Source: Labilithrix sp. (GTDB lineage: Bacteria; Myxococcota; Polyangia; Polyangiales; Polyangiaceae). Taken from it: a stretch of DNA of 48,150 nt. Each line of letters starts with the position of its first letter. The first letter of the stretch is position 1. Below the pieces are notes generated by a model. That model searched no databases and was not told where the DNA came from. It was given only the letters and a program-made list of their open reading frames with translations. The stretch spans positions 1 through 48,150 of the forward strand of contig JAQBQL010000120.1 of the NCBI GenBank assembly GCA_028287035.1. The letters run 5' to 3'. This document shows, piece after piece, positions 20,461-26,652 of this stretch. Position numbers and translations under genes: made by a program.

Positions 20461-20717
20461 CTCCGACTCTTAGCGCGCGATCCGCGCCCGTGCTGGGCGG
20501 CCGCGCTGCAACCTGCTGACGCACACGGGCTCCTCTCGTCCATGGACGGTCAAACGGCTTCCGTCGATTTACGCGAGGGGTGGAACGTGTCAGCTTGGGT
20601 TCTCTCCGGATGCCGCCTCGAAGCCTCAGACCTTCGGCTGGTGTCAGCGATGTCGATCTCATCAGCCTGCTGAGAGCGCCGTCGCTGGGTCTGCACGAGG
20701 CGGACGGCGCTGCGCCG

Positions 20718-22775
20718 ATGGCGGAGCGTGTGGTGTGTGAGCATGCCGACCGCTGCGGCGGCTGCCCGATCATTGCGCTGCCCTACGGCGAGCAGCTCGC
20801 CATGAAACGTGGCCGGGTCGTGCAGTCCGCGTCGCGCTACCCGACGCTGGAGCTCGTCTACACGGAGCCCGTCGCCGCGGCGCACCCCATCGTCGAGTAC
20901 CGCACGCGCGCGAAGCTCATCGTGTCGTCCGGGGGCCGCCTCGGGCTCTACGCCAAGGGCGGCGGACACCAGGTGGTCGACATCCCGCGCTGCCGGGTGC
21001 TCTCGCCCACGCTGGTCGCGGTTGCCGCGGAGCTCCGGGCGCGCATCGTCCAGGACGAGCACGAGGGCGGTCCCTTCGCGCCGCTCGACCCCGGGCGCGG
21101 AGGCACGCTCCGCGCCGTCGATCTGCGCGAGGTCAGCACCGACGACGGCCCGCGCGTGCTCGTCACGCTGGTGGTCCAGCGCGCGCCCCTCGCCTCGCCC
21201 GAGGTGCTCGACGCGCTCCAGGGCGCCGTTGCGTCGCTCGCTGCCGCGCTGCCGGCGGTGGTCGGGATCGCGCTGAGCCTCCATGACGGCGAGTCGCCGC
21301 AGGTCCTCGGCAGCGAGACGGTGGTGGTGCACGGCGAGGCGAGCGCGGTCGACCGCACCGGCCTCTCGCAGCACCACGCGACGTACGGCGGCTTCGTCCA
21401 CGCGCACCGCGGGCAGGCCGAGCGCGTCCACGCGACGCTCGTCGATCTGCTGGGCCTCGAGCAGCGCGACGACGAGGGCTCCAGCGCCACGCCGGACGAC
21501 CGCATGCGCGTCCTCGAGCTGTATGGTGGGTCGGGCGCCATCGGAATCGCGCTCGCTCACGCCGGCGCGAGCGTGCACCTCGTCGAGTCCTCCGCGGTCT
21601 CCGCGGAGCACGCCCAGCGCGCCGCCGAGGGCCAGCACGTGCCGGTGGTCAGCGAGACGTCGGAGGTCTCCGTCGCGCTCCGCCGGCTGAGCGACGAGCG
21701 GCGCGCCTTCGACGCGGCGGTCACCAACCCCCCACGTCGCGGAATGAGCCCGCTGGCGCGCGAGCTGGTCGCGCGTCTGTCGGTGTCGACCCTCGCCTAC
21801 GTGTCCTCGGACCCGGACACGCTGGCCCGCGACCTCGATCACCTCGCGCGGCTCGGCTTCACGGTCTCGACGCTTCGCCCCCTCGACATGATCCCGCTCA
21901 CCGACGAGGTGGAGACGATCGCGCTCCTCCGGCGCATCGGCGTCCCGACGCCCAAGGTGGCCTACGAGGACGACGAGCTCCTCGCGGTGGAGAAGGGCGC
22001 GCACGAGCCGACGCTTCCGCAGACGGACTACGCCACCTCCCTCCTTGCCCGGGCGCGGCGGCTCCCCGGCGCCGAGCAGGCGGTCCCCGTGCACGGGCTC
22101 GACACGGGGACGAGCGGCCTCGTGCTGCTCGCAAAGCGTCCCGAGCACGCCGCCCGCTGGGAGGCGGTGATGGCCGCCGAGAGCACCCGGAAGATCTACA
22201 TCGCGGGCGTACGCGGGGTGACGCCGAGCAAGGGCGCGATCACGCGGGACCTCCGCGAGGAAGGCAAGATGTACCCCGCCCGCACGCGCTATCGGCGCCT
22301 CGCGGTTGCTAGCGGGCACTCGGTCCTGCGCGTCATCCCCGAGCAGGGGCGGCCTCACCAGATCCGGCGGCACCTCGCGGCGATCGGGCATCCCGTTCTC
22401 GGCGACGATCGGTTCGGCCACGCGCCGACGAATCGCTTCTTCGAGGACAAGAACGCGCTCGACCGCACGTTCCTGCACTGCGTGCGGCTCGAGCTCGATC
22501 ATCCCGACAACGGCCAGCGCCTCATCATCGAGTGCTCGATGCCCGGGGATCTGCGCAGCGTGCTCGAGCGTACGAGCGGCCCGGGCACGCTGCGGTTCCT
22601 CGAGCAGAAGAACGCGCTCGGCCGCACCGGCCAGTCGAGCCTCCCGCCTCCTCCCGACAGCGGTCAGGACACGGCGAGCGGCCTCGACCTCGAGTCGAGC
22701 TCACGTTCGATGCGGCCCGAGATGGTCACCGACGACGAGGACGTGGGCACGCGCGACACCGGCCGCGACTTCTGA
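20718..22775 (+). CDS. fused m5U-methyltransferase-like (Fe-S) / RluA-family pseudouridine synthase
   Basis: This 685-residue protein joins two RNA-modification modules. Residues about 1-408 resemble RlmD/TrmA-type m5U methyltransferases: C7, C13, C16 (C-x5-C-x2-C) and C92 match the 4Fe-4S ligands, LELYGGSGAIGIALA the SAM-binding loop, and E399 (DEVETIALL) the general base. But the canonical YVSCNP motif reads YVSSDP, so the catalytic Cys is Ser364, and DPPR is NPPR (N337). Residues about 411-620 are an RluA-type pseudouridine synthase with HGLDTGTSG (catalytic D462; the usual Arg of HRLD is Gly) and GRPHQIRRHLAAIGHPVLGD. An acidic tail follows. Start ATG 20718 is the first Met ahead of the Fe-S motif; an in-frame GTG at 20580 would add 46 residues. 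The methyltransferase half may be an RNA-binding pseudoenzyme that guides the synthase. Confidence 0.85.
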   Translation: MAERVVCEHADRCGGCPIIALPYGEQLAMKRGRVVQSASRYPTLELVYTEPVAAAHPIVEYRTRAKLIVSSGGRLGLYAKGGGHQVVDIPRCRVLSPTLVAVAAELRARIVQDEHEGGPFAPLDPGRGGTLRAVDLREVSTDDGPRVLVTLVVQRAPLASPEVLDALQGAVASLAAALPAVVGIALSLHDGESPQVLGSETVVVHGEASAVDRTGLSQHHATYGGFVHAHRGQAERVHATLVDLLGLEQRDDEGSSATPDDRMRVLELYGGSGAIGIALAHAGASVHLVESSAVSAEHAQRAAEGQHVPVVSETSEVSVALRRLSDERRAFDAAVTNPPRRGMSPLARELVARLSVSTLAYVSSDPDTLARDLDHLARLGFTVSTLRPLDMIPLTDEVETIALLRRIGVPTPKVAYEDDELLAVEKGAHEPTLPQTDYATSLLARARRLPGAEQAVPVHGLDTGTSGLVLLAKRPEHAARWEAVMAAESTRKIYIAGVRGVTPSKGAITRDLREEGKMYPARTRYRRLAVASGHSVLRVIPEQGRPHQIRRHLAAIGHPVLGDDRFGHAPTNRFFEDKNALDRTFLHCVRLELDHPDNGQRLIIECSMPGDLRSVLERTSGPGTLRFLEQKNALGRTGQSSLPPPPDSGQDTASGLDLESSSRSMRPEMVTDDEDVGTRDTGRDF

Positions 22776-24717: not shown

Positions 24718-26652
24718 TCAGGGGCCGTTGCCGCAGAAGTGGTCGCCCACCGCGCGCAGCCAGGCCCCGAACGTCCGGTTGTCGAAGCGGCAGAAGCCGC
24801 CCGGGCCGACCGCCGGCGCGATGCACGCGCTGGCGATCGCCTGTCCGCTGCACTTGCCGCCCGCGGTGAGGACCGAGGACCGGCACTGCGTCTCGTTCGC
24901 CGCCGGACACTGGTCGCACGCCGTGTCCTCGCAATCGGCCGCACAGCCGGTGCTCCGGTTGCACGTCGCGTTCACGAACGGCGCCGCGCACAGGTAGAGA
25001 CCGGTGCCCTGCGCGAACGGCACGTTGAACGGCGCGATGCACGCGGCGCACGCGGGGTTCGTCGCCTGGAGCACAGCGAACGCCCCGGCGCAGTTGCCGC
25101 CGTCACAGCCCGCCTGCAGCGAGTCGAGATCGGCGACGTCGCTGCACAGGTTCTGGAGCGAGGGCGTGACCGGGGTGGCGACGCCCGCGGCGCAGCCAGG
25201 GTAGTTCGCGGGACACAGCCCCGCCTGGTTCGCGCAGAGGCGCGGGACGTTCAGCGTGCTGCAGGTCGAGCCCTGCGCCGTGCAGTTCGTGCACGCCGCG
25301 CCGCCCGATCCGCATGCGCCGCCCGTGAACCCGCCGGCGCACGTCGTGCTGCTCGAGCAGCAACCGGCGCAGTTGGCGGGACCGCACCGCGCGACGCACG
25401 CCTGACCGCTGCAGGCCTGGCCGGTCGCGTTGCAGTCGGTGCACGCGGCGCCGTTCTTCCCGCATGCGGGGTCGGTGATGCCCTGGACGCAGGTGTTGCC
25501 CGAGCAGCAGCCCGCGCAGTTCGCCGGGCTGCACGAGGGCACCTGGCACGTCGCGCCCTGGCAGACGCGGCCGATGCCGGCGCAGTTCGCGCAGGCGATG
25601 CCCGCGGCGCCGCAGGCGGTGTCCTGGGTGCCCGCCGCGCACACGTCGCCGACGCAGCAGCCCGCGCAGTTCGCGGCCGTGCAACCGACCGGCGGGATGC
25701 AGGCGCCCGCGTTGCAGCTGTCGCTCGGCCCGCACACCTTGCATGCCTCGCCACCCTTGCCGCACGCGGCGCGGGTGGTGGCGATGACGCACGCGTCGCC
25801 GACGCAGCAGCCCGCACACGTGGCGGGGCTGCATGCCGGCGGCGCCTGGCAGGTGCGCTCGCCGGGGAGGCCGTCACCGATGCACACCTTCCCGGTCGCG
25901 CCGCAGTTGGTGCACGCGGCGCCCTGCTTGCCACACGCGCTCGCGTCCGTGCCGACGACGCACTGGGTGCCGTTGCAGCAGCCGCCGCAGTTCGCCGGAC
26001 CGCACGTCGCGGTGCCCTGGCACTGGCCGCCGCCCGAGCCGGTGCCGCCGCACGTCTGGCCGGTCGACGTGCAGCTCGTGCAGGCCGTGCCGCCCGCGCC
26101 GCACGCGGTGTTCTCGAGACCGGTCAAGCACTGGTCGCCGACGCAGCAGCCCGCGCAGTTGCTCGCGTCGCACTTTCCGGCGCCGCACTGGCGGGAGAAG
26201 CTGTCGCACGCGCGGCCCTGCTGGGCGCAATCGAGGCACGTGTCGCCGGCGCGGCCGCACGCGGTGGGATCGGTGCCGGCGAGGCAGGTGGCCTGCCCGC
26301 CGTCGAAGCTGCAGCAGCCATTCGGGCACTCGTCGGGACCGCAGCTCGCCACCGGCCGCGAACAGACCCGCCCGCGCGACACGTCGCACGTGGTGAAGCC
26401 GTTCGCGATGCAATCGGAGCACTGCTGGCCGCGCGATCCACAGGCCTGGTTGTCGCTGCCGACGCGGCACTTGCCGCCGGCATCGCAGCAGCCATTCGGA
26501 CAGCTGGACGGGCCACACGCGCCGCCGTCGGCGGAGGCGTCGAGCGCCTCGAATTCGAGGCTCGAGCGACCGCAACCGGGAGCGAGGACGACGAGGAGCA
26601 CCGTCGCGAGGACGAAGGCCGCGAAGGCACGAAGAAGCGAAGGCAGGCGCAT
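24718..26652 (-). CDS. Cys-rich repeat lipoprotein
   Basis: The 644-residue protein begins with a lipoprotein signal (VLLVVLAPGC lipobox) and contains eight tandem repeats of about 40-55 residues, each built around CxxxxCxxGCC and a second half such as ACGKNGAACTDCNATGQ. Examples of the core are CGPSSCPNGCC, CDASNCAGCC, CSPANCAGCC and CGPANCAGCC. The C-terminal 150 residues form a separate, less repetitive Cys-containing domain. Such Cys-rich surface proteins are abundant in myxobacteria; disulphides are expected to form in the periplasm or outside. The role is unknown, possibly surface structure or adhesion. The gene is monocistronic, ending 9 nt from the convergent receiver-like gene. Near-identical repeats at DNA level make it prone to copy-number change. 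Confidence 0.85.
   Translation of the reverse strand: MRLPSLLRAFAAFVLATVLLVVLAPGCGRSSLEFEALDASADGGACGPSSCPNGCCDAGGKCRVGSDNQACGSRGQQCSDCIANGFTTCDVSRGRVCSRPVASCGPDECPNGCCSFDGGQATCLAGTDPTACGRAGDTCLDCAQQGRACDSFSRQCGAGKCDASNCAGCCVGDQCLTGLENTACGAGGTACTSCTSTGQTCGGTGSGGGQCQGTATCGPANCGGCCNGTQCVVGTDASACGKQGAACTNCGATGKVCIGDGLPGERTCQAPPACSPATCAGCCVGDACVIATTRAACGKGGEACKVCGPSDSCNAGACIPPVGCTAANCAGCCVGDVCAAGTQDTACGAAGIACANCAGIGRVCQGATCQVPSCSPANCAGCCSGNTCVQGITDPACGKNGAACTDCNATGQACSGQACVARCGPANCAGCCSSSTTCAGGFTGGACGSGGAACTNCTAQGSTCSTLNVPRLCANQAGLCPANYPGCAAGVATPVTPSLQNLCSDVADLDSLQAGCDGGNCAGAFAVLQATNPACAACIAPFNVPFAQGTGLYLCAAPFVNATCNRSTGCAADCEDTACDQCPAANETQCRSSVLTAGGKCSGQAIASACIAPAVGPGGFCRFDNRTFGAWLRAVGDHFCGNGP

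Follow-up and report, generated by a model that had tools for sequence, protein, structure and literature searches.

A methyltransferase-pseudouridine synthase fusion in a myxobacterial lineage carries substitutions at both active sites

TrmA and TruB are described as tRNA chaperones (PMC11301382), and that work raised the question of whether such a protein is kept for the mark it makes or for the RNA folding it assists. The account of bovine TRMT2B in PMC7237155 adds a natural variant, in which the nucleophilic Cys is changed to Tyr with the rest conserved; a tRNA chaperone role is proposed there for the protein, and bovine mitochondrial tRNAs are reported to lack its mark. For pseudouridine synthases, the portion of PMC3919597 cited here describes a homologous Arg that fills the place of the flipped base: RluA variants carrying Met or Lys instead are inactive, and RluB with the Arg changed to Ala shows 0.6% activity. 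The pneumococcal methyltransferase RlmCD, which has a DPPR motif, is reported to keep about 10% of its activity when D381 is changed to Ala (PMC5614603); thus, this position matters, yet Asn occurs there naturally in E. coli RlmC. Here we analyzed a gene that joins these two RNA modification chemistries in a single chain, a fusion for which a narrow literature search, at the level of listings, returned no description.

The window, i.e., the whole 48,150-nucleotide stretch of DNA analyzed, lies on a contig related most closely, among named entries, to Labilithrix MAGs. It contains an open reading frame on the plus strand (20718 to 22775) that translates into 685 residues with no internal stop. 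The ATG at 20718 was used as the start throughout; starting instead from an in-frame GTG at 20580 would lengthen the protein by 46 residues. The features of this gene are as follows.

20718..22775, plus strand: fusion ORF of 685 aa with m5U-methyltransferase and pseudouridine-synthase domains (translation, Pfam, NCBIfam, PDB search)
20718..21944, plus strand: RlmC/RlmD-type m5U methyltransferase domain, residues 1-409 (TIGR00479 and PRK03522 models, AlphaFold2 model)
20736..20765, plus strand: codons of C7, C13 and C16, Fe-S loop (aligned with RlmD C81/C87/C90)
20991..20993, plus strand: codon of C92, fourth Fe-S cysteine (aligned with E. coli RlmD C162)
21726..21737, plus strand: NPPR, residues 337-340, RlmC-type motif (E. 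coli RlmC has NPPR)
21807..21809, plus strand: S364 (TCG), replacing the nucleophilic Cys (aligned with E. coli RlmD C389)
21912..21914, plus strand: E399, general-base Glu, kept (aligned with E. coli RlmD E424)
21954..22592, plus strand: RluA-superfamily pseudouridine synthase domain, residues 413-625, sister to the TruC-type clade (Pfam, NCBIfam, tree)
22095..22097, plus strand: G460 (GGG), replacing the HRLD Arg (RluA R62); HGLD is residues 459-462 (alignment, codons)
22101..22103, plus strand: D462, catalytic Asp, kept (RluA D64; alignment)
22197..22199, plus strand: Y494, kept (RluA Y96; alignment)
22365..22367, plus strand: R550, kept (RluA R165; alignment)
22569..22655, plus strand: conserved C-terminal tail, residues 618-646, outside the Pfam match (column conservation)

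Two Pfam domains scored above cut-off in this ORF, tRNA_U5-meth_tr and PseudoU_synth_2, the latter with 75 bits versus a cut-off of 26.8. The NCBIfam models for RlmD, RlmC and the RluA subfamily also matched the protein, all under their curated cut-offs (121.5 bits versus 558 for the RlmC equivalog and 125.8 versus 183.55 for RlmD), and a PDB sequence search returned RlmCD, RumA and RluC/RluD/RluA. In the AlphaFold2 model, the methyltransferase half is mostly confident and the synthase half poorly resolved, with pLDDT below 50 at residues 498-537 and 546-583. The fold comparison that the initial annotation had proposed was made with this model: the top Foldseek matches were RlmCD bound to U747 RNA (5zq0, TMt 0.74) and RumA (1uwv, 0.69), followed lower down by RluC (0.57) and RluA (0.55). 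By Pfam, NCBIfam and fold comparison, the protein has the fold and SAM-binding domain of an m5U RNA methyltransferase. Together with the trees described below, sequence and model show that the window protein is an m5U methyltransferase with a 4Fe-4S motif fused to a TruC-like pseudouridine synthase.

Alignment with E. coli RlmD bore out what had first been read from the letters of the methyltransferase domain, namely, four cysteines of a 4Fe-4S cluster, a retained general-base Glu and a Ser in place of the catalytic Cys. The positions of C7, C13, C16 and C92 are Cys in 121 of 121 aligned rows (the window counted twice), and by its four conserved Cys ligands the window protein would be a 4Fe-4S protein with a predicted cluster. 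Only 6 residues precede the first of these cysteines, leaving no TRAM-sized segment. The SAM-motif glycines are kept along with E399 and NPPR. No Cys is left in the methyltransferase domain that could substitute for the nucleophile, as the remaining two (C588 and C606) belong to the synthase; the idea that another cysteine serves in its place thus found no candidate. NPPR is present as first noted, but it is no departure from a DPPR norm, for E. coli RlmC itself reads LVNPPRRG.

In the synthase domain, the equivalence of the HRLD Arg with RluA R62 was taken from an alignment of the window with RluA. The retained Asp and the change from Arg to Gly had both been recognized correctly; the site cannot, however, be called intact, since the lost Arg is essential in characterized relatives. 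Within this domain, the stretch NRFFEDKNALDRTF (22431-22472, residues 572-585) is echoed by LRFLEQKNALGRTG in the tail (22590-22631, residues 625-638), an internal repeat that could represent structural mimicry.

To place the methyltransferase domain among its relatives, trees and pairwise matches were considered together. In the tree, the domain is placed on the same side as RlmC and apart from a separate RlmD-like group, with moderate support (87/92) and long branches, and its best E. coli blastp match is RlmD (25%, 3.6e-19), followed by RlmC (22%, 3.3e-14). We therefore regard it as a putative methyltransferase of the RlmC/RlmD type with a lean towards RlmC. Of the 17 fusion genomes examined, 15 also contained a separate match to the RlmD model, and TrmFO, which provides the alternative path to m5U54 in tRNA, scored above cut-off in 17 of 20 genomes; by elimination, U747 would be the likeliest methylation target. 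G190, G196 and G250, the three fusion genomes whose 23S sequence was read, all carry both U746 and U747; the 401-base E. coli 23S stretch used for this purpose matched 4 of 20 genomes at seven loci, three of them on the minus strand, and G158 was not read. A pairing of RlmC (m5U747) with RluA (Psi746) on adjacent bases of helix 35 was considered and is not supported, because the synthase groups with TruC (97/92) and not with RluA.

A sequence search with the window protein matched 1066 proteins. The best 120 of these, the window's own entry excluded, share 66-78% identity with it over 99-100% of the query, and the few named among them are Labilithrix or Deltaproteobacteria MAGs; two further sets (best 120 of 962 and best 120 of 697 matches) added Polyangiaceae MAGs and Pendulispora rubella. 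The related loci L001 and L003 belong, by NCBI taxonomy, to Labilitrichaceae (Myxococcota, Polyangiales), with Polyangia as the class name. Among 289 genomes from the class that includes Myxococcales MAG 68-20 (G002), about 100 have a strong match (E 1e-45 or better; 101 when counted by hand), in most cases one that spans both domains, and a phylum-wide draw gave a match in 48 of 377 genomes. The synthase domains of 20 fusions and the window form a single clade (100/96) with the TruC-type proteins as its sister group (97/92), a topology that suggests that the fusion arose once. Genomes G001-G003 carry nine PF00849 matches each, including the fusion and a TruC-type protein. In each of G277, G150 and G184, two fusion-like proteins are encoded, one with a recognizable synthase and a second (L120, L124 and L128, respectively) that lacks synthase motifs and keeps the methyltransferase Cys.

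We then asked how position 364 varies, using 142 proteins from the nearest part of the family (the three best-120 sets described above) and 81 fusions read from genomes; both counts leave out P0002, which is the same protein as P0001 of the window, and the standalone proteins L129-L135. The residue is Cys in 136 of the 142 proteins and in all 81 genome fusions, Ser in five (P0001, P0006, P0042, P0043 and P0136), and deleted in one (P0067). Since Cys is nearly universal here, Ser364 is not a feature of the fusion architecture. The initial annotation had asked whether all homologues of the fusion share the Ser, and had named fusions with the normal Cys as evidence against its own reading; such fusions are the rule. 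The Asn of NPPR, by comparison, occurs in every one of the 142 proteins, among them that of the window; of the 81 genome fusions, 67 have it and the other 14 have Asp. Some distant fusions read DPPR. All four Fe-S cysteines are visible in 136 of 142 proteins, the other six being incomplete at the N terminus, and in 77 of 81 genome fusions; L071 is incomplete, and the distant fusions L105, L107 and L108 lack the first Cys, yet keep the methyltransferase Cys and HRLD. In P0067, on a 46-kb contig, 18 residues around the methyltransferase nucleophile are deleted and HRID is kept, which is either another route to methyltransferase loss or an assembly fault.

The Ser carriers are not of one descent. 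By parsimony with column 364 left out, they require about four changes (P0136 sits on a very long branch), and a single clade of all five was rejected (p-AU 0.0002, column 364 left out). The window protein and P0006 are sisters, with an SH-aLRT of 99 with or without column 364, and their shared Ser is thus probably inherited. P0042 and P0043 are joined in the methyltransferase-domain tree (SH-aLRT 85, column 364 included), and the evidence against them as a single clade is weak (p-AU 0.038, column 364 left out). A single base change in TGC can yield Arg, Tyr, Gly, Phe or Trp besides Ser. All five Cys substitutions observed are to Ser, a pattern that may reflect either a tolerance limited to small side chains or a functional Ser. 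At the codon level, position 364 is TGC or TGT in six relatives read as DNA versus TCG in the window, and position 460 is CGC in the same number versus GGG; both window codons are two bases away from those of relatives (TGC to TCG, CGC to GGG) and are thus not single-base errors.

The synthase site is less uniform. Of the 142 proteins, 127 retain both the Arg and the Asp of HRxD; among the 81 genome fusions, 50 do so and the remaining 31 lack at least one of the two. Some distant members have no recognizable synthase motif (e.g., L112, L117, L119, L120, L124 and L128), although the alignment is uncertain there. In the genome set, therefore, loss affects the synthase site more frequently and the methyltransferase keeps its chemistry residues, opposite to what had initially been suggested. 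The motif reads HGLD in the window, HDLD in P0006 and FGTD in P0136, all three being changed at both sites, and P0042 and P0043 combine Ser with an intact HRxD (HRID/HRLD). The synthase Arg or Asp is missing in 3 of 6 non-Cys proteins versus 11 of 135 Cys proteins (Fisher P of 0.013, kinship ignored; the fragment P0130, which has no synthase-motif region, was excluded). The losses at the two active sites are linked.

Both active sites look complete in most of the close relatives retrieved, and thus the ancestor probably made both marks: m5U, perhaps at U747 of 23S rRNA, and pseudouridine. In the window lineage, the methyltransferase nucleophile became Ser and the synthase lost its base-flipping Arg. 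Judging from mutants of related enzymes, the window protein has probably lost both activities or retains them only very weakly, and it most likely persists, on the precedent of the proteins introduced above, as an RNA-binding or RNA-folding factor, e.g., a chaperone of rRNA assembly. On balance, we lean slightly towards this reading, in which the window fusion is a double pseudo-enzyme, an orthologous copy kept for RNA binding or folding.

The gene order around the window fusion is that of L003 (sigma factor, GSDH, fusion, FAD oxidoreductase, Cys-rich ORF), and L001 has the same neighborhood minus the GSDH gene. The conserved neighborhood disfavors the idea, which we considered, that the gene in the window is merely a spare paralogue. 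The Cys-rich ORF (24718-26652, minus strand, 644 aa) consists of many repeated Cys-containing units, gave no Pfam match at E 1e-5 and has counterparts in L001 and L003 that are homologous and occupy the equivalent position.

Selection on the gene was assessed in two ways. The dN/dS ratio of the window versus six relatives is 0.29-0.36, averaging over Ser and Cys states, and the 15 pairs among the six relatives give 0.15-0.39. A sharper test is offered by P0001 and P0006, since their differences postdate a common, probably Ser-bearing ancestor. With P0129, P0130 and all Ser or deletion proteins set aside in defining the conserved columns, these two agree at 157 of 163 conserved methyltransferase columns and at 155 of 233 others (i.e., since the Cys was lost, 96% identity versus 67%), and the Cys pair P0003/P0004 agrees at 158 of 163 and 179 of 233, respectively. 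For the synthase domain, the corresponding values are 109 of 114 conserved columns and 55 of 99 others for P0001/P0006, and 113 of 114 and 78 of 99 for P0003/P0004; in the tail (residues 611-646), P0001 and P0006 are identical at 23 of 23 conserved columns. Thus, the conserved methyltransferase columns are about as constrained in the Ser pair as in the Cys pair, those of the synthase slightly less, and these data show that purifying selection still acts on the Fe-S cysteines and on the conserved positions of the family in the window lineage.

These values bear on the possibility that the fusion is decaying in the window lineage, its intact ORF reflecting a recent loss of function. Ser lineages do evolve faster: the window lineage has 73 unique changes versus 20 for P0004 (chi2 30.2) and 60 versus 29 for P0003 (chi2 10.8). 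Of 296 columns with at least 95% conservation, the window departs from the family at 11, compared with a median of 2, and only 3 of 120 rows depart more often; both active sites are altered together. Such rates and departures could mean decay in progress. However, P0001 and P0006 are only 77% identical overall and still agree at nearly all conserved methyltransferase and tail columns, simulated mutation to 77% identity left the ORF free of stops in only 14 of 500 runs, and the position of the gene is conserved. We therefore consider decay unlikely, although it deserves weight.

A second alternative holds that Ser364 acts as a nucleophile, probably a slow one, and that the protein is still an m5U methyltransferase. 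The residues a pure RNA binder would not need, E399, NPPR and the SAM-motif glycines, are all kept, so this explanation fits them too. About four independent changes of Cys, all to Ser, point the same way, as do the NPPR retained in all five Ser proteins and the Glu retained in four, with Asp in P0042. On the other side, the published mechanism is described as wholly dependent on Cys and Glu (PMC7237155), TrmA C324A is reported to have lower activity and RNA binding (PMC10484741), and Ser may be merely the least disruptive replacement. Overall, a serine nucleophile strikes us as rather improbable; were Ser lineages still to methylate, it would be an unusual nucleophile for this class of m5U methyltransferases.

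The initial annotation had proposed that a dead methyltransferase domain guides an active pseudouridine synthase. D462, Y494 and R550 of the window accord with this idea, and the proteins that fit it best are P0042 and P0043, where Ser accompanies an intact HRID or HRLD; the nucleophile deletion of P0067 beside a retained HRID is in line with it as well. In the window, however, the synthase itself has lost its base-flipping Arg, as it has in P0006, and the homologous Arg is reported to be essential in RluA and RluB (PMC3919597); P0136, with FGTD, fares no better, and the family at large keeps the methyltransferase Cys. We give this reading only a slender chance. The fusion that had been noticed is real, but conversion of the methyltransferase into a guide does not describe its architecture, because homologous fusions keep the Cys. 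A non-catalytic methyltransferase domain is plausible in the window lineage alone; the earlier interpretation was partly right and set at the wrong level, that of an architecture instead of a lineage variant. Finally, a sequencing or assembly error has hardly any probability in our view: the window protein was recovered from a single contig, and the contigs of P0043 and P0136 are 3.2 and 6.8 kb long, but the codons differ by two bases at both sites, there is no frameshift and the same Ser occurs in P0006 on a different, 417-kb contig.

Returning to the double pseudo-enzyme, we regard the fusion family, with its repeated loss at either active site, as a more interesting object than the window variant. 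Either site has apparently been lost in different lineages with the protein kept, which amounts to a natural experiment on the mark versus RNA folding. It is conceivable, and we suggest it tentatively, that a bifunctional modifier has shifted repeatedly to a non-catalytic Fe-S RNA chaperone, through loss at one active site or both, in several myxobacterial lineages, or else that m5U methylation has passed to a serine nucleophile in the Ser lineages.

Compared with known systems, the window protein resembles E. coli RlmC (23S m5U747) in having its Fe-S cysteines at the extreme N terminus, in NPPRRG and in falling on the same side of the tree (87/92, long branches). E. coli RlmC has the usual Cys/Glu region of the family, whereas the window has Ser at the nucleophile position and a fused synthase, and the two share only 22% identity (blastp), with a weaker E-value than that for RlmD. 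The fold is shared with E. coli RlmD/RumA and pneumococcal RlmCD, and the 4Fe-4S cysteines with RlmD. RlmD, however, has about 80 residues ahead of the cysteines and DPAR, versus 6 residues and NPPR in the window, and RlmCD is described as having DPPR and lacking the Fe-S cysteines (PMC5614603), in contrast to NPPR and four cysteines here. On the synthase side, E. coli TruC (tRNA Psi65) of the RluA superfamily represents the sister clade (97/92), and the equivalents of RluA D64, Y96 and R165 are kept; unlike TruC, the window synthase is fused behind a methyltransferase and lacks the HRLD Arg, and in G001-G003 a separate TruC-like protein is kept beside the fusion. Bovine TRMT2B offers the parallel of a replaced nucleophilic Cys in an otherwise conserved protein (PMC7237155), although it is eukaryotic, has Tyr instead of Ser and, in the portion of that paper cited here, goes without mention of a synthase fusion.
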